NCBI RefSeq assembly: GCF_025685605.1
Contig: NZ_JAGTUT010000001.1
Location: 2,356,001-2,420,000 of the forward strand
Length of the DNA stretch: 64,000 nucleotides
Source of the DNA: Granulicella arctica
GTDB taxonomy: Bacteria; Acidobacteriota; Terriglobia; Terriglobales; Acidobacteriaceae
Direction of reading: 5' to 3'
Shown here: in pieces, positions 25,256 through 36,664 of the stretch
How the letters are laid out: each line of letters starts with the position of its first letter
How positions within the stretch are numbered: the first letter of the stretch is position 1
Made by a program: the position numbers and the translations under genes
Notes under the pieces: generated by a model
The model's input: the letters and a program-made list of their open reading frames with translations, nothing else
Told to the model about the DNA's origin: nothing
Database searches by the model: none

Positions 25256-26080
25256 TTAAAGGATACGATGCAGCGTTCGATTCCAGCGGGTCTGATCGAA
25301 CATGTGAAAGAGAACATGGCCGATGAAGCTGATCCGATCGCCTGCGCTCTGTTTGTCGATCTGGTCTGCTGGCGTCTGGAATGACCAGTAGACGAAGAGC
25401 GGTCGACCTACGATGTTCTCGCGCGGGACGAAGCCCCAATAACGACCGTCGAGACTTTCGGTCCGGTTATCTCCCAGGGCGAAGATCTTGCCGGGCGGAA
25501 CAAGCAGATCGCCATCCTGAACGTTGCGGGGAAGCTCAGCGGCCCATTGTTCGGTGACCTCTTCGTATGGCCCTGGCTTGGTGGAAGGGAAGTTGTCGCG
25601 ATAGGCGTTGAAGGCGTGCTGTGGGTTGTCATCGTCAGCAGGCTTTCCGGCCTGCGACTCATTCTGCGCAACGCCGTTCAGGTAAACGATGCCTTTGTGG
25701 AGGTGGATTCGGTCTCCCGGAATCGCGATGGCGCGCTTTACGAGGTAGAGATCCGGTTCGCCTGGCTTGAGGAAGACGATTACGTCGCCGCGATGAACAT
25801 CGCGATAGCCCATGAAGAAGGCCCAGGGAGTTGGCGGCGCGAGCGTGACACGATCGACGACAACGTGATCGCCGATGAGAAGCGTTCCAACCATCGAGGC
25901 TGAAGGGATCTCAAAGTTCTGGAAGACAAAGGTCATCACGAAGAGACCGATGATCAGGACGCCGCAGATGGAGGCGAGCGATTCGAGGAGTGTCTCCGAC
26001 TCGCTTGATGGCGTAGCAGGAGCTTCGTCAATGGACGCTGGTTCGTCGCTGATGGTCACGATTGTGGTCTCTGCAGGCAC
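25256..26080 (-). CDS. lepB: Signal peptidase I (first of two paralogs)
   Basis: Membrane-bound Ser-Lys protease cleaving signal peptides after export, 274 residues. A single N-terminal TM helix (ICGVLIIGLFVMTFVFQNFE) is followed by the catalytic Ser in IPSASMVGTL, the catalytic Lys in LVKRAIAIPGDRIH, and the conserved FALGDNRTESLDGRYWGFV. The likely start is GTG at 26080. It is arranged in tandem with a second lepB (26120-26896), sharing the same motifs but with diverged sequence. Confidence 0.95.
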   Translation of the reverse strand: MPAETTIVTISDEPASIDEAPATPSSESETLLESLASICGVLIIGLFVMTFVFQNFEIPSASMVGTLLIGDHVVVDRVTLAPPTPWAFFMGYRDVHRGDVIVFLKPGEPDLYLVKRAIAIPGDRIHLHKGIVYLNGVAQNESQAGKPADDDNPQHAFNAYRDNFPSTKPGPYEEVTEQWAAELPRNVQDGDLLVPPGKIFALGDNRTESLDGRYWGFVPRENIVGRPLFVYWSFQTPADQIDKQSAGDRISFIGHVLFHMFDQTRWNRTLHRIL

Positions 26081-26119
26081 AGGTGACAGTGTATCGCCGA
26101 TGACGGTTCGTGCAGCCTG

Positions 26120-26896
26120 TTAGTAGATGACGCGGAGGGTTCTGTCCCATCGCGCGAGATCGACCAGATGACCGAGGAAGCTCTGCCTGATGCGGGAAGA
26201 ACGCAACGGTGCTTTGAGTTGCGGCGCGGCGGAAGGGTCATTACGCTCTATTCGCCGGAGGGAGAAGTAGATGAGGAAGGGCTTTCCCACGATTGCCGAC
26301 CTCGGGACAAAACCCCAGTAACGGCTGTCCTCGCTGTTGTTGCGGTTGTCGCCGAGAACGAAGTACTTATTGGGTGGAACGACCAGGTTATCGTGGTCGA
26401 TGCGATGACGCATCTCGATCCACCAATTGGCGTCAATGCCTGGTTCCGCAGTCTCCATGCGGGGGAAGTTATCCCGGAAGCTATCTGGTCCAGCGGCTCG
26501 ATAGACCGCGTAAGGTTCGTCGAGCCGCTGATCATTGATATAGACATGACCTTCGCGGAGTCGTACGCGATCGCCCGGAAGACCGATCACGCGCTTGACG
26601 AGGTGAAGCGATGGTTCGACGGGGTAGTGGAAGACGACGATATCGCCGCGATGAATACTGGTTGGCGGAAGAGGATCGTGGGCTTCTGTGGGGACAAGTT
26701 GCTTATTAACGAGCAGGAAGTCTCCGACCAGAAGAGTTGGCTCCATCGAGCCTGAGGGGATCTGAAATGGCTGGGCTGAGAAGGCGATGATGAAGATGGC
26801 AATGACGATCAGGTAAAGGACCGACTGAACCGCTGCGAGCGGACCGCTGGGATGATGATGGTGCGCGATGTGCTGCGCGGAAGGCGGGGAATTCAT
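26120..26896 (-). CDS. lepB: Signal peptidase I (second paralog)
   Basis: A 258-residue type I signal peptidase: TM helix near VLYLIVIAIFIIAFSAQPFQ, catalytic Ser in IPSGSMEPTLL, catalytic Lys in LVKRVIGLPGDRVR, and YFVLGDNRNNSEDSRYWGFV. The N-terminus is His-rich (HIAHHHHPSG). It starts inside the last codon of rnc (ATGA overlap) and is followed 39 bases later by the first lepB. Two adjacent copies suggest division of labour among secreted substrates, which is inference. Confidence 0.95.
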   Translation of the reverse strand: MNSPPSAQHIAHHHHPSGPLAAVQSVLYLIVIAIFIIAFSAQPFQIPSGSMEPTLLVGDFLLVNKQLVPTEAHDPLPPTSIHRGDIVVFHYPVEPSLHLVKRVIGLPGDRVRLREGHVYINDQRLDEPYAVYRAAGPDSFRDNFPRMETAEPGIDANWWIEMRHRIDHDNLVVPPNKYFVLGDNRNNSEDSRYWGFVPRSAIVGKPFLIYFSLRRIERNDPSAAPQLKAPLRSSRIRQSFLGHLVDLARWDRTLRVIY

Positions 26897-31418: not shown

Positions 31419-31494
31419 GGGCCTGTGGCGCAGCTGGGAGCGCGCTTCCATGGCATGGAAGAGGTCATCGGTTCGATCCCGATCAGGTCCACCA
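31419..31494 (+). tRNA. tRNA-Ala(GGC), integration site of a genomic island
   Basis: A 76-base cloverleaf: acceptor GGGCCTG/CAGGTCC (one G-T pair), D-stem GCGC/GCGC, anticodon stem CTTCC/GGAAG with loop ATGGCAT (anticodon GGC), T-arm ATCGG-TTCGATC-CCGAT, discriminator A and encoded CCA. It reads GCC/GCU. A TTGACG -35-like element lies at 31377. From the anticodon arm onward its 3' half is duplicated at 34800-34846, the mark of integration by a tyrosine recombinase that restores the tRNA. Confidence 0.96.
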
Positions 31495-31495
31495 A
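31449..31495 (+). repeat. attL: direct repeat within tRNA-Ala
   Basis: 47 bases beginning CATGGCATGGAAGAGGTCAT in the anticodon arm and ending one base after the CCA. It is identical to the right copy except for C in place of T in the T-loop. It contains the anticodon-loop region where tyrosine integrases usually cross over. Confidence 0.9.
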
Positions 31496-32707
31496 TTACT
31501 TCAACAACTTAGCGGAACCCCTCCCAAACGTTTGGCAGCAAATGGCAGCAAATTTCAAATTGCCGTGCAGCCAAGCCATGTCAGTCGTTTCCATCTCCTC
31601 TCTGAAGCGCCACGCTTCGGCTGACTTTCTCTCAAAATTTCTATCCATCAATGCACCACCGCCACAGATTCGGGAATGGCTGGCGGTCGCATCTTGCCCT
31701 TCGCCCCCAGCTTCTTCATCGTGCCCTGCAGCTCCCGGTGAATGGAGTCCACAATGGCGCGAACGCCCTCCGGCATCTCCTGCATAGACGTCGGTCGTCG
31801 TCGCCACATGCGAGTGCCGCATCATCCCCTGCACGTCCTTCACTGTGCCCTTCTTCTGGGCCAGCGTTGCGATCGTGCGTCGGATGACCTGGAACGTGAG
31901 CTTCGGTAGACCGAGCTCGGTTGCCAGTTTGTGCAGGACCCGCTTGCGGTAGTTGCTCGGGTCCATGAAGGAGCCGTCCCGATTCGGAAACAGAAACGCT
32001 TCCTCATCCGATGGCGGCGGGCCATGTTTCTTCTTTTTCTTGTCGTACTGCTCTTGGCTGACTTCCCGCCAGGCGACGAGATCGTCGGAGAGGTCCTTCG
32101 CAATCGGTACTTCGGTGAGACTACCTTTCGTCTTTCCGTAGGACCGAATCTTCCCCTTGTAGACCGTCTCCACAATGGTAAGCGAAACCGCTTCAACGCG
32201 ATGACACTTCCACCGGAACGCAAACAACTCGCTCGGCCGAAGTGCATTCGTCATATCGAGCTTGAGCAGAATCCGGTCGCGCAGGCCGAGCCTGGCCAAG
32301 GCCGCTGCGAGTTGTTCCCAACTCAGCACCGTCTTGTCCGTCTCCCGCAGGTTCGCGGGAGTCTTCAGCGTGCGCGCAGGGTCTTTCGGGAGAAAGTCCT
32401 GGTCAACCGCTTCAGCGAAGATCGCCTTGATGTATGCCCGAATCTGCAAGACCCTGTCTCTCGACCGCGTCTTGGCTAGCTTGTTGAGGTGAGTCTGAAG
32501 CGTGAACTTGTCGAAGTTCTCCAGCCGCACATCCCCGAACTCGTCAACGAGATCAGCCTGGATGAGGTGCTTCTTTACTTTGGCAGTTTCATCGCGCCAG
32601 TCCGCCTCTTTCAGCGGCAAGTAGCGGTGGAGTACGAACCATCCGAAGGTGACAGCTCCATTGACCATGGACTTGTCACCGTTGAGTGGCTGTTTTCCCA
32701 GCTTCAC
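31496..32707 (-). CDS. Tyrosine-recombinase integrase, C-terminus frameshifted
   Basis: Phage/island integrase next to its tRNA target. A core-binding region (LQTHLNKLAKTRSRDRVLQI) is followed by the catalytic domain with Arg I (NALRPSELFAFRW), Arg II in a variant box (FQVIRRTIAT, His replaced by Gln), the box-III His (MMRHSHVATTTDVY) and the nucleophile Tyr in DVY. Directly after that Tyr (codon at 31784-31786) the frame is lost: one base later the sequence reads QEMPEGVRAIVDSIHREL ... to a natural stop at 31648, as expected for this family. The actual frame runs through unrelated residues to 31496. The start is GTG at 32707 or ATG at 32668. Possibly inactive. Confidence 0.85.
   Translation of the reverse strand: MKLGKQPLNGDKSMVNGAVTFGWFVLHRYLPLKEADWRDETAKVKKHLIQADLVDEFGDVRLENFDKFTLQTHLNKLAKTRSRDRVLQIRAYIKAIFAEAVDQDFLPKDPARTLKTPANLRETDKTVLSWEQLAAALARLGLRDRILLKLDMTNALRPSELFAFRWKCHRVEAVSLTIVETVYKGKIRSYGKTKGSLTEVPIAKDLSDDLVAWREVSQEQYDKKKKKHGPPPSDEEAFLFPNRDGSFMDPSNYRKRVLHKLATELGLPKLTFQVIRRTIATLAQKKGTVKDVQGMMRHSHVATTTDVYAGDAGGRSRHCGLHSPGAAGHDEEAGGEGQDATASHSRICGGGALMDRNFERKSAEAWRFREEMETTDMAWLHGNLKFAAICCQTFGRGSAKLLK
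31531..31553 (+). repeat. GGCAGCAAAT tandem repeat at left end of island (putative integrase arm sites)
   Basis: TTTGGCAGCAAAT followed at once by GGCAGCAAAT. The same word, TTTGGCAGCAAATG, recurs at 34709-34722 inside the right-end palindrome. A pair of identical short words just inside attL and attR fits arm-type integrase binding sites; binding is inferred. Confidence 0.5.
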
Positions 32708-32719
32708 GACGGAGTCAGT

Positions 32720-33631
32720 TCAAGACAATACTGCGTCAAGCTCACGAAGCAGGGTTTGATACTTCCCCGGATTCTCAGTTTGTAACCGTTCCAAATTCAT
32801 AAGCTTCCATCGAATCGCCGGAAGATTACGAATGGCCGGTGACCCGATGAGGTTCCAGTCCGGCCTGAATGTATGAAAGGACTTAAGAAAGAGCTTAGAT
32901 GTTTCATCCAGGCGGGAGCTAATCTCCGCAACCAATTGCTCTCGGGTTGCGAGGAGCATCTCCAAGGAGGTATCGCTAACCGTCATTCCGACAAATTCTC
33001 TCTCGAAGGCTTGCCTTATGTCCTTCAATCGGGGTTGCAGGAGTTCGTGCACTGGACGATTGTGGCTCAGAATGTATGCGAGAAATGTCTGGTAGAGAGT
33101 TTTGTCGATCCCTTCATTGGCAAGCAGATGTCGAACATCGAATAGATCCCGAGGATGCTGGCGGTCGAGTGCAGCTACCAGTTTCCCTGCATAGAGATCG
33201 GCAAACGAAACGACTTGGATTTCAGCGAAGCCGAATTGCTCCTCTACGATGGGCCGGACTGTTTTCAACTCCGTGGGATGAACAGTGCCCCGAAGTACGG
33301 GAGTGACTTCAATCTTGATTTGGGCGTTTCTTTGACGAACAAGGACGAGGGTGCCGTCCGCGTTAGCGCTGTCGGTGACGACGCCATCTGGGATCGCTTT
33401 ACGAATCTTCTGGGCAATACGGCCCAGGGCAGATCGTATCCCGATAAGCGATGTCTCTCGGTCCTCAATCGACAGATAAACCAGGTCGATGTCCACCGAA
33501 AGGCGAGGCATGTCGCGAACGAAAAGATTGATTGCTGTTCCGCCCTTGAGAGCAAAGCAAGTCTCGGTCGCCACATAGGGCAATACACGGACGAGTAAGG
33601 CTACTTGTGCCTTGAAAACCTCACTGGCCAT
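32720..33631 (-). CDS. abiEii: AbiEii nucleotidyltransferase toxin
   Basis: Type IV toxin of the AbiE abortive-infection system, a DNA-polymerase-beta-like nucleotidyltransferase. From ATG 33631 (MASEVFKAQVALLVRVLPYV) it has 303 residues. The core is CFALKGGTAINLFVRDMPRL then SVDIDLVYL: the GG(S/T) loop and the DxD metal pair. The conserved AbiEii segment DLYAGKLVAALDRQHPRDLFDV follows. The frame is open upstream to 33775, but that part overlaps abiEi and lacks family similarity. The chosen start overlaps abiEi by 11 bases, the usual antitoxin-first coupling. Confidence 0.9.
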   Translation of the reverse strand: MASEVFKAQVALLVRVLPYVATETCFALKGGTAINLFVRDMPRLSVDIDLVYLSIEDRETSLIGIRSALGRIAQKIRKAIPDGVVTDSANADGTLVLVRQRNAQIKIEVTPVLRGTVHPTELKTVRPIVEEQFGFAEIQVVSFADLYAGKLVAALDRQHPRDLFDVRHLLANEGIDKTLYQTFLAYILSHNRPVHELLQPRLKDIRQAFEREFVGMTVSDTSLEMLLATREQLVAEISSRLDETSKLFLKSFHTFRPDWNLIGSPAIRNLPAIRWKLMNLERLQTENPGKYQTLLRELDAVLS

Positions 33632-34490
33632 CGTTGCTGCCTCCAGGGTGAAATAGTTCCATTGGAAGCGTGATCTGATAGCGCGAGTCGAAGTGGCCTT
33701 GGGGAACCAGTTGACGCTTTCCTTTCCCGAGATCGACGGCAGACAGATCCAGATGTTTGAACCAGGCATGTCCATGTCTGTCTGCGTACCAGAGGAAGAG
33801 CCGCTTTACCTTTACACTCTTGCATTCCCGCAGGAGCTTCCCCAGCAGTTGAGGACGGAGATTGGCCAGACCTTCCATGACGACATCGACTTGATGAAAG
33901 CTCTCGTGATGCGGGAGTTCATCGATCGTCTCCAGGATTGCTCGTTCGGGAGCTGACATGGTCAGCGACCATTCCCAGGGGCTCGTGGATTCCGCATCCT
34001 TTAGCGATCCTGATGCTTCGCCGGAACGCAGATCGTAACGCTTCGCTTCAACGCCGCTATTGGAGTTTGCAAACAGTCCAAAAGAGCGGGTTTCAAACTG
34101 AGCGGATATCGGGAGCTTGGCAAGCCAGGATGGAAGCCCCGACCCGTACAAGTAAACTCGCGAAGTGTCGCCAGCTTCGATGTAATGAGCATAGCCAGAC
34201 AGTTCGACTGCCGTTCGTCCGCCGACGTGAAGTGGCTTGTGCATGACCTGCTGGAGGGAGAGCACAACAACATCCCATCGCAGCGAGGCCTTGGTAAGTT
34301 GGCTTGGCCGCCGGTAAACGCGGGGACCTATTCTTTCGAGCCAACCCCGGTCCACATAGTCTCGTATCGATGAGCGGGATATCCCCTGGGTTTGGAGCCA
34401 GGCGCTATCCGCCAAAAAGCCCTCCGGCAGACTCAGGAGTAGGTGGTTTAGTCGAGATGATCTTTGTGCGTCCATGACGCACATATTCAT
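33621..34490 (-). CDS. abiEi: AbiEi antitoxin / autorepressor
   Basis: Antitoxin of AbiE with an N-terminal winged helix (LADSAWLQTQGISRSSIRDY followed by VDRGWLERIGPRVYRR) and a C-terminal antitoxin domain (LHVGGRTAVELSGYAHYI, WSLTMSAPERAILETIDELP). AbiEi neutralises AbiEii without stable complex formation in known systems and represses its own promoter through inverted repeats; two such repeats are seen here. The start is uncertain among ATGs at 34490, 34484 and 34475; a predicted -10 box at 34486-34491 would favour 34475 and a nearly leaderless message. Confidence 0.88.
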   Translation of the reverse strand: MNMCVMDAQRSSRLNHLLLSLPEGFLADSAWLQTQGISRSSIRDYVDRGWLERIGPRVYRRPSQLTKASLRWDVVVLSLQQVMHKPLHVGGRTAVELSGYAHYIEAGDTSRVYLYGSGLPSWLAKLPISAQFETRSFGLFANSNSGVEAKRYDLRSGEASGSLKDAESTSPWEWSLTMSAPERAILETIDELPHHESFHQVDVVMEGLANLRPQLLGKLLRECKSVKVKRLFLWYADRHGHAWFKHLDLSAVDLGKGKRQLVPQGHFDSRYQITLPMELFHPGGSNDGQ

Positions 34491-34550
34491 ACATGCATAA
34501 ACCCCATGTCAAGTTCACAAGATCCCATGATTGTGCGCCATGAACGCACA
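34465..34550 (-). promoter_or_regulatory. abiE promoter with two operator-like inverted repeats
   Basis: Two copies of TGTGCG-N7-CGCACA: TGTGCGTCCATGACGCACA (34465-34483) and TGTGCGCCATGAACGCACA (34532-34550), 67 bases apart centre to centre, both containing CCATGA. Between them on the minus strand lies TTGACA (34512-34507) and TATGAA (34491-34486), spacer 15 bases. The downstream operator covers the predicted start region, fitting repression by AbiEi. Confidence 0.7.
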
Positions 34551-34702
34551 CAAGGGGCCATACAGCAAACCCAACCTCCCAAAGCCATCTAGCTGGAATG
34601 GGCGATCTACAGTCCTAAGCCAACTACCTCGGCAAGACTGTTGACACAATCAATCGGGCTGTCCGCCCACGGATCAGCCCGATTACCCGATGATGAATTT
34701 GG

Positions 34703-34736
34703 CAGCATTTTGGCAGCAAATGCTGCCAAAATGCTG
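34703..34736. repeat. 34-bp near-perfect palindrome close to attR
   Basis: Arms CAGCATTTTGGCAGCA (34703-34718) and TGCTGCCAAAATGCTG (34721-34736) with a 2-base centre. Contains the TTTGGCAGCAAATG word also found just inside attL, so integrase or excisionase binding is likelier than termination. The rest of 34551-34799 shows no gene. Confidence 0.7.
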
Positions 34737-34799
34737 GTTTTACCGGTTTAACCAACTCATAACCACTGTATCGTCAATAGCTTAGGTTCCGACCCACAT

Positions 34800-34846
34800 C
34801 ATGGCATGGAAGAGGTCATCGGTTTGATCCCGATCAGGTCCACCAA
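34800..34846 (+). repeat. attR: partial tRNA-Ala copy
   Basis: 47-base copy of the tRNA-Ala 3' half including CCA, with TTTGATC in place of TTCGATC in the T-loop. It lacks the 5' half and cannot be a tRNA. It marks the right boundary of the island. Confidence 0.9.
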
Positions 34847-34892
34847 ACAACCCCATCAAAATGAACAACTTCCAAACTCAGACCTCTTCTTT

Positions 34893-35172
34893 TTAGAGGG
34901 GCAAAGGTGCAAAAGGGTGTTGAGACTTTAACACCCTTCCCGGAAGCAGTAGTTCAACCAGCTTCGTGTTGGCGTCTCGCTTCGTCTGCGAGACGGCGTG
35001 AGTGTATGTCTCACGCGTGGTGCGACTATTCGCATGCCGCAGCAACTCCTGGGCCACTTTTATATCCGTCCCGAGAACTCGTACCAGGGATCCGAGCGTA
35101 TGCCGCAGTTTGTGCCAGCCGATGATCTTGCCTGTGATCCCAGCACGTTCGAGCGTTCGATGTTTACGCTGG
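34893..35172 (-). pseudogene. C-terminal fragment of a second tyrosine integrase
   Basis: Reading the minus strand from about 35172 gives an open frame containing LERAGITGKIIGWHKLRHTL, VAQELLRHANSRTTRETYTH and VELLLPGR to a TAA at 34893. HKLRHT (H-x-x-R), LLRHAN and the Tyr of TRETYTH are the box II, box III and nucleophile motifs of phage integrases. The N-terminal two thirds are absent: the sequence changes abruptly into an Oar receptor reading the other way near 35170. It differs from the island integrase, whose box II lacks the His. Hairpin AAGGGTGTT/AACACCCTT lies at 34913-34938 in its 3' end. Confidence 0.8.
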
Positions 35173-36664
35173 AGACGACTACAAGGTCAGCAACCGTCTC
35201 ACGCTGAACTATGGCGTGCGTTGGAGCTACCCTGGCACTGTAAACGATGATCGCAACTCGATCTACAACTTCACGCCACAGCGCGGCTACTTCAAGGCTC
35301 CGCTGTATGACAAGAACCTGGGCAATGTCGCACCACGCGTCGGCTTTGCCTTTACGCCGTTCAATAACTCCACGGCAACTGTCATTCGCGGCGCCTACGG
35401 CTGGTTCTACGATCAGCCTACGGTAGGCCAGTTTGTTTACAACAGCGTCGGTAATGGTGCCAGCGCCGGCATCTTCGGCAGCCCAGGTGATGCGAATGCT
35501 GCCATCAACGTCTCCAGCAGCACCTATACCCTCGGCACCTCGACCTTCCCGGCCGGCGTGAGCTTTGGAGCGAATGGTCAGCCCACCACGTCGCTGGGCA
35601 TTCTTGCCATCAACCCCAACTACCGTGCTGCGTACATGCAGAACTACAACGTGAACGTCGAGCAGCAGCTAGCGCCGAACACTCTCCTGACCGTTGCGTA
35701 TGTGGGCAGTGGTGGTCGCCGTCTGGCGTACGTCGCCGATCTGAACCAGATCCCGGTTACAACGAACGCAGCAGCCCGAGTTCGACCGTACGCCGCACAG
35801 TATCCCTACCTGACGGCCATCAACCAAGTGAACAGCGGAGCTACCTCGAACTACAACTCGCTGCAGTTCTCGCTGAAGCAGGCACAGTGGCATGGTCTTT
35901 CGGCTACGGTGTATTACACGTGGTCCAAGTCGATGGATGATTCGTCAAGCGCCACCACGCCTATGAACAGCCTAAACCTTCGCCAGGACTGGGGCCTGTC
36001 GACCTTCGACGTGCGCAACAATGTGTCTGGCTTCGCCAGCTACGCTGTTCCGCACTTCACAAGCCGCGCTCCTCGCCTGACGCAGGGCTACCAGGTAAAC
36101 GCGCTCTACTCGTTCGCAGGTGGTACACCGGTCAATATCCTTGCCGGGACCAACACCAGTGGATCGGGCGAGGCCAGCCGTGATCGTCCGAACCGCACCG
36201 GAGGCGTGCTCCCTTATGTGACTCGCGTCACCACGTCGACTGCTACCTCGCGTTCGTACTCTTACCTGAATAAGGCGGCATGGACCGCTGCTCCAGCCGG
36301 TACCTTCGGCAACGAGCGTCGCGACAGCATCGAGGGTCCCGGCTTCGGCGATGTCGACATGTCGTTCTTCAAGCGCACACCGATCACGGAGCGTATCAGC
36401 ACGGAACTTCGTGCCGAGATCTTCAACGTCGCCAACCAGTCGAACTTTGCCAACCCCAGCGGTACGCTCACGTCATCGGCCTTCGGTGTTCTGTCTGCAA
36501 CGCGTAACTCCTCCTCGGCCCCTGGCCTGGGAGCGGGCGAGCCACGCAACATGCAGTTCGCCTTCAAGGTCAATCGCATGTCAGCTAAGACCTGCAGATT
36601 GCAGGAAACGGCTGTCACTCAGCACGGCCAGCCTCGTTCATACCTTTCGCGAGAACCTCGATGA
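35171..36664 (+). pseudogene. Headless Oar-type TonB-dependent receptor remnant
   Basis: Only the C-terminal third of an acidobacterial Oar/CarboxypepD_reg-type outer membrane receptor. The frame is recognisable from GDDYKVSNRLTLNYGVRWSY (35171) and continues through NYNVNVEQQLAPNTLLTVAY, SNYNSLQFSLKQAQ, TVYYTWSKSMDDSS and EIFNVANQSNFANPSG, family landmarks of the beta-barrel. Full receptors have about 1100 residues; the signal peptide, regulatory domain and plug are missing. The 3' end is also altered: MQFAFKVN, normally followed by Phe-stop, runs on for about 30 unrelated residues into a dispersed repeat. The first internal start codon is GTG at 35216. Confidence 0.82.

Follow-up and report, generated by a model that had tools for sequence, protein, structure and literature searches.

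A damaged integrase gene joined to an AbiE toxin-antitoxin operon at a tRNA-Ala gene of Granulicella arctica: the probable remnant of a collapsed integrative and conjugative element

How did a damaged tyrosine integrase gene and an AbiE toxin-antitoxin (TA) operon come to stand side by side, framed by direct repeats at a tRNA-Ala(GGC) gene, in the soil acidobacterium Granulicella arctica? The locus lies in a stretch of 64,000 nucleotides of contig NZ_JAGTUT010000001.1 that was analyzed as a whole (hereafter, the window), and an earlier note on this DNA took it for a naturally minimal integrative element, with integrase and cargo as a unit. In this work, we found that the locus is more probably what is left of an integrative and conjugative element (ICE) that collapsed, its interior having been deleted such that attL and the truncated integrase gene (int') became fused to abiE and attR. 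We put the probability of this reading at about 0.7. It is based on the two ends of the element and the arm motifs that they have in common, the damage to the integrase gene, a homologous large element in another species, the motifs of the toxin, and two palindromes by the antitoxin gene, all of which can be seen directly.

The cores of the two attachment (att) sites are 47-bp direct repeats that are identical at 46 positions (98%) and have a start-to-start distance of 3351 bp; this arrangement at a tRNA gene is confirmed and could hardly have arisen by chance. The locus has the site-specific ends of an integrative element, with the tRNA regenerated on the left and a fragment of it (bases 31-77) on the right (Table 1). 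A search of the whole genome with the tRNA gave four matches; besides the gene and its fragment, these were two full-length matches of 80-81% identity, probably other tRNA genes. In these respects, the earlier note was accurate: the repeats, with their single mismatch, do frame an integrase and abiEi/abiEii, ARAGORN confirms the tRNA-Ala(GGC), which is whole at attL and truncated at attR, and the domain matches from Pfam and PADLOC agree with the assignment of a type IV AbiE pair. The earlier note mentions neither the damage at both ends of the integrase gene nor the remnant of another integrase just beyond attR.

The two ends are further connected by the arm-type motif TTTGGCAGCA, exact copies of which occur in the window only near the integrase end (one copy) and near attR (three copies). 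The motif is located 35 bp past the tRNA gene in the window, Granulicella sp. S190 (G028), Terracidiphilus gabretensis (G061), and Granulicella rosea (G062). It also precedes att by ~100 bp in the window, contig C34 of G028, G061, and G062. It is absent from another relative, G001 (at the tRNA gene), and from four tRNA copies that have no nearby integrase match. It is also absent at the att of G028:C6 (L063 7043-7092 and ~300 bp inward), and the other copies have three motifs each, one of which is degenerate in some. In its place, G028:C6 seems to have another repeated motif, which perhaps reflects a different integrase specificity.

An autonomous island would have an intact integrase, which was not found here. 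We compared the integrase gene of the window with three intact homologs, in G028 (L005), T. gabretensis (L006), and G. rosea (L007), all of which encode 414 aa with a common N-terminus. Residues 63-369 of the G028 protein align to residues 2-308 of the window protein at 97.7% identity, and the first ~62 residues of the intact relatives are missing from the latter. Furthermore, a frameshift (~31785) is located just after the catalytic Tyr (that of TTTDVY), and the tail of the intact homologs can be read in another frame. The His of the usual HxxR box is Gln in the window; this was not counted as damage because the intact relatives have Gln too.

The missing part of the integrase gene coincides with a change in homology. 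The DNA homology of the integrase gene to four relatives (L005, L006, L007, and L064) ends at window position 32704, and the homology of the abiE block to L062 begins at 32712. From this position to 34846-34850, a right-end module of ~2.1 kb contains abiEii, abiEi, arm sites, and att in this order, the arm sites and attR occupying ~310 bp beyond the abiE pair. We found this module at five places in four genomes (the window, G028:C34, G028:C6, G061:C2, and G062:C7) at about 84-92.5% identity, the other four matching the window copy at 84.5-92.5%, and past the abiEii stop or past the tRNA-like core there is no similarity that extends to all five. Only in the window does the module adjoin this integrase. 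A search for the same integrase-abiE pair, as the earlier note had proposed, found no other case in the genomes of 12 integrase loci and a set of 61 genomes, and the possibility that integrase and abiE form one transferable pair was rejected, as the matches to the window AbiEii elsewhere in these genomes are not beside this integrase. The pairing is most likely a deletion junction.

A large relative of the locus is found in G. rosea. In this genome, a related integrase gene (95% nucleotide identity) stands beside tRNA-Ala (C7:443735-443811), and the abiE-att module (C7:226167-228289; abiEii, C7:227390-228289; att, C7:226167-226213) is in attR orientation on the same contig, such that 217 kb separate the two in G. 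rosea compared with 3.35 kb between the cores in the window. Genes for a TrwC relaxase, TrwB/VirD4, VirB4, VirB6/TrbL, VirB8, CagX/VirB9, and TrbI/VirB10 are present near the G. rosea integrase. In contrast, no relaxase, coupling protein, or mating-pair gene was found within window positions 31496-34799; the window locus is therefore classed as a relic rather than an ICE. Inspected by eye, the rest of the G. rosea interval contains transposases, CRISPR-like genes and repeats, sulfatases, and TonB-type receptors, with no obvious core genes; the CRISPR-Cas-like genes and a repeat-rich stretch are located at ~388-399 kb of the contig (L084).

Based on these findings, the history of the locus may be reconstructed as follows. 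An ICE would have entered the 3' part of tRNA-Ala(GGC) through tyrosine integrase recombination, which rebuilt the tRNA at attL. The left end of this ICE would have carried int, and the abiE pair, with the arm sites and attR beyond it, would have formed the right end. Later, an internal deletion would have removed the sequence for the N-terminus of int and brought the rest of the gene up against the 3' edge of abiEii, and the frameshift after the catalytic Tyr may have occurred either before or after this deletion. The remnant is probably no longer self-mobile, whereas the abiE operon is still intact. AbiEi should repress its own promoter at two palindromes and neutralize AbiEii, a toxin that would arrest growth if the balance were upset, for example by loss of the locus or by phage infection.

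Table 1. Features of the tRNA-Ala(GGC) locus, given in window coordinates.
Feature	Position	Strand	Support or remark
tRNA-Ala(GGC), whole	31419..31494	+	ARAGORN
attL core, 47-bp direct repeat	31449..31495	+	tRNA bases 31-77
Tyrosine integrase open reading frame, damaged	31496..32707	-	PF00589, E 9.1e-14
Arm-type motif TTTGGCAGCA, integrase side	31531..31540	+	35 bp past tRNA
Junction	32704..32712		Integrase homology ends 32704; abiE-module homology begins 32712
abiEii, DUF1814 nucleotidyltransferase toxin	32720..33631	-	PF08843, 2e-42; PADLOC
abiEi, antitoxin (AbiEi_3_N + AbiEi_3)	33621..34475	-	PF11459, 2.9e-42; PF17194, 1.1e-23; PADLOC
Operator-like palindrome 1, at abiEi start	34465..34483		Identical in 5/5 copies
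Operator-like palindrome 2, half-sites as in palindrome 1	34532..34550		Identical in 3/5 copies
Three arm-type motifs TTTGGCAGCA, attR side	34698..34730		Two direct, one inverted
attR core, tRNA 3' fragment	34800..34846	+	46/47 identical
Remnant of another, distinct integrase beyond attR	34905..35186 (approx.)	-	59% aa identity over 95 aa

Several observations weigh against this collapsed-ICE reading. The joining deletion is inferred from the junction. The ratio of non-synonymous to synonymous substitution rates (dN/dS) over the remaining codons of the window integrase is still low (0.06-0.09 against the three relatives), so its decay, if the gene is indeed dead, would have to be recent. Moreover, int' begins 12 bp after the abiEii stop, and may still be expressed. 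The G. rosea interval, as seen by eye, is a mosaic with insertion sequence elements and CRISPR-like genes and may represent several stacked elements. Among the five modules, only that of the window adjoins the tRNA gene: that of G. rosea, a plausible attR, is 217 kb away, both G028 modules are on contigs other than the one with the tRNA, and the T. gabretensis module stands in inverted orientation at a distance of 1.08 Mb from its tRNA. T. gabretensis also has a second att copy (C18), with no AbiE recognized among the adjoining open reading frames (ORFs); this copy may thus be the end of its ICE, in which case the abiE module is not necessarily its attR. The scattered modules of G028 and T. 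gabretensis would fit a rearrangement of former stacked islands.

Stacking is also the basis of the best-surviving alternative, in which int' and abiE-attR are the ends of two different elements that, having one site specificity in common, were inserted in tandem before a deletion joined them. In G001, G011, G013, and G027, a single tRNA is followed on its contig by several att copies. In the window, the remnant of a second integrase outside attR is a sign of stacked islands; its 59% match is an integrase that adjoins an att copy in G027, and remnants of the same family are found past att in the window and in both G028 copies. Nevertheless, the arm motifs at the two ends of the window locus match each other, and the G. 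rosea ends delimit a single interval, with no further att copy detected in that genome at E <= 0.001. We consider this composite origin rather improbable.

The locus could also be what the earlier note had proposed, a naturally minimal and still mobile integrative element with abiE as its sole cargo. The clean att repeats, the single integrase ORF with the catalytic Tyr kept, and the TA cargo are consistent with this proposal, as is an island of 3 kb at the same tRNA in G001 (L065 4402-7465), which consists of an integrase gene, an unrelated AbiEii/AbiEi pair, and an att fragment (bases 28-77). However, both integrases are incomplete: that of the window is truncated and frameshifted, and that of G001 lacks the first ~108 residues. 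With the abiE-att block found elsewhere without this integrase and the G. rosea integrase standing beside conjugation genes, the proposal no longer holds, and we regard it as very unlikely. Finally, the 2.1-kb abiE-att module might itself be mobile, as a satellite moved in trans by tRNA-Ala integrases and inserted beside a pre-existing int relic. The sharp edges that it has at all five places, no fewer than three of them not at a tRNA-Ala island, would suit this idea; but it is scarcely credible and was rejected, given that the abiEii edge of the four other copies has no exact core 12-mer or arm site (the sole match being one degenerate arm ~1 kb away in G028:C34) and that the integrase remnants past att in three copies fit stacked islands instead.

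The abiE operon passes the sequence tests for its family, which predict TA activity. Its two genes are on the same strand with the antitoxin first and overlap by 11 nt; a start of abiEi at 34490 is also possible. AbiEi has an N-terminal winged helix-turn-helix (PF17194) and a C-terminal PF11459 domain, both above the cut-off. For AbiEii, we used published motif definitions (PMC3985639) and a search pattern that allowed Lys before GG. All five copies contain GG-x15-DID with Arg four residues before the first Asp, KLVAALDR (KLVAAIDR in G061), and RDLFD; departures from the printed consensus are the Lys, in place of a hydrophobic residue, before GG and an Ala for the aromatic residue of motif III. 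The pairwise dN/dS between copies (0.11-0.23 for both abiEi and abiEii) indicates purifying selection, a signal that would date mostly from before the collapse.

The two palindromes, one at the abiEi start and the other upstream of it, are predicted operators, in line with the inverted repeats expected at an abiE promoter. The second differs from the window at one base in each of two copies: in the spacer in G028:C6 and at the last base of a half-site in G061. Among dinucleotide shuffles of this stretch, 0/2000 contain even one palindrome of that pattern, which was picked after it had been seen, and a pair of palindromes of any kind that have a 6-bp arm in common occurs in 0/1000. A scan of 32650-34900 gave no sigma-70 consensus promoter.

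Across relatives, the tRNA query was matched in 60/61 genomes, and a tRNA fragment copy is present in at least 17/36 same-genus relatives among the matches listed; across the genus, tRNA-Ala(GGC) is an integration hotspot. Sigma and anti-sigma factor genes stand to the left of the tRNA in 17 of the 18 tRNA-bearing loci tested, the exception being on a short contig, and the proteins of the right flank of the window have at most distant matches at the tested loci. The window AbiEii was matched in four of the 61 genomes, including its own (G000; G028, twice; G036; and G020), and in two of seven further genomes reached through integrase matches. The G020 match is a fragment of 32 residues with stops. 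The G036 match (C13:29193-29498) is a decayed AbiEii with three stops and 66% identity to the window protein, on a contig with no att copy among the matches listed. The element is therefore accessory. Distances to G028, T. gabretensis, and G. rosea differ greatly between genes: the synonymous divergence (dS) is 0.18-0.27 for the integrase and 0.96-1.64, near saturation, for the adjoining sigma factor gene. The integrase is thus far less diverged, which demonstrates horizontal transfer. No abiE relative was found in viral contigs. Distant AbiEii relatives were found in 214 of 72,556 plasmid records, 207 of them below 60% identity; these are uninformative about the locus.

Are AbiE genes common at the inner edge of such islands? 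We scanned the flanks of 36 tRNA-fragment copies in 22 genomes for ORFs of at least 100 aa within 2.6 kb, which gave 109 island-side and 97 outer-side ORFs. Two sites at contig ends had no island-side ORF and no outer-side ORF, respectively, and the att copies G065:C87:1-50 and G063:C33 and weak tRNA matches were left out. On the island side, PF08843 was found at 9/36 copies (the window, G028 twice, G061, G062, G001, G011, G027, and, weakly, G005), AbiEi_4 at eight, AbiEi_3 at five, and DUF6088 at three. None of these four is among the best 25 of 138 families on the outer side, where PF08843 was found neither at the 30 att copies of the genus nor among 15 ORFs of the other six. Within the genus (37 genomes, own included), PF08843 is at 6/30 island sides and 0/30 outer sides (Fisher p 0.024); with the window and the two G028 copies collapsed to one, the counts are 4/28 and 0/28 (p 0.11, not significant). 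A uniform genome would give an expectation of 0.018, given 40 listed PF08843 matches, with islands being a richer background. The idea of edge enrichment was formed on the same data used for its test. With related copies collapsed, the enrichment is suggestive and not settled.

These AbiEii genes form about five lineages with little or no mutual similarity (the window group, G001, G011/G065, G027, and G005), the best match between groups being 27% (G001/G027, E 9e-7). Eight of the nine point away from att; the G027 toxin is on the other strand, with no antitoxin recognized there. In G065, att is adjoined by a DUF6088 antitoxin gene, which is followed by an AbiEii-like ORF that is cut short. 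TA-like neighbors of att fragments were also noticed elsewhere: a HipA-domain protein and a small helix-turn-helix (HTH) gene in G023 (L066 7132-9092; an 8.5-kb island at the same tRNA), a Fic-domain protein and an HTH protein in G013 (L091 5547-6583), and DUF433/DUF5615 neighbors in G030.

It is conceivable, if doubtful, that the attR edge of these Acidobacteriaceae tRNA-Ala elements is a dedicated TA slot, refilled by unrelated AbiE pairs mostly in one orientation, and that islands collapse to this slot, the edge TA persisting, such that an islet with a TA alone would be the trace of a former ICE. In two species, G. arctica and that of G001, the integrase at tRNA-Ala is truncated and has become fused near the AbiE pair at attR; two cases do not make a rule. 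An origin of the G001 pair from the attR edge of a larger island was considered and rejected, as its relatives (59-70% identity in five same-genus genomes, G007, G014, G015, G029, and G036) are not near any listed att copy. An edge TA as a barrier to deletion is a weak explanation: the inner gene is the toxin, and its prior loss should be harmless. Persistence through a benefit such as defense or by chance fits as well.

To the right of attR (34905-36664), the integrase remnant is followed by an N-terminally truncated outer-membrane gene of the TonB/Oar type, matching only positions 388-838 of PF25183. Elsewhere in the window (25256-26896, minus strand), two adjacent signal-peptidase-like genes were recognized by eye.

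It has been proposed that mobile elements end up as TA-only islets, and the window locus is a presumed example. It combines the presumed end state with two matching termini and a large relative with genes for conjugation, all of which can be compared directly. A second species has a comparable small island whose AbiE pair is unrelated, and the matter can thus be turned into counts across genomes.

The toxin MosT is AbiEii-like. Like the window operon, MosAT of SXT is a TA pair linked to an ICE, which it maintains, and host and element differ (PMC2654960). The AbiE family has been reported to act in plasmid stabilization and phage resistance (Dy et al., 2014; PMC3985639), and an ICE of Streptococcus suis is stabilized by AbiE together with a type II TA (PMC11062541). 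That ICE resembles the proposed ancestor of the window locus in carrying a type IV AbiE (PMC11062541; reviewed in PMC12548467), whereas the window ICE has seemingly collapsed, leaving the TA at the attR edge. Compared with the AbiE described by Dy et al. (2014), the window operon has the same overlapping bicistronic organization with the antitoxin first, the winged helix-turn-helix antitoxin, promoter inverted repeats, GG-x15-DhD, the Arg of motif II, the Lys and Arg of motif III, and +DxxD. It differs in the Lys before GG, in the COG4849-type motif III, whose aromatic residue is replaced by Ala, and in having two complete palindromes in place of one long repeat split by 27 bp (PMC3985639). 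About half of the TA systems of Serratia are reported to be located in islands or prophages (PMC7725324). In a full-text literature search, the titles and abstract openings gave no account of this tRNA-Ala site in Acidobacteriaceae or of AbiE at an attR edge. The locus shares a whole tRNA on the left, a fragment on the right, and a tyrosine integrase with the tRNA islands that Islander maps from the regenerated tDNA and the displaced fragment (PMC4383910), and differs from them in that its integrase is damaged. The idea of TA-only chromosomal islets, from which the other element genes were lost, has already been stated (PMC12548467) and corresponds to the state proposed here. Unlike those islets, the window locus has both termini and a large relative identifiable, and the loss may therefore be read from the sequence.

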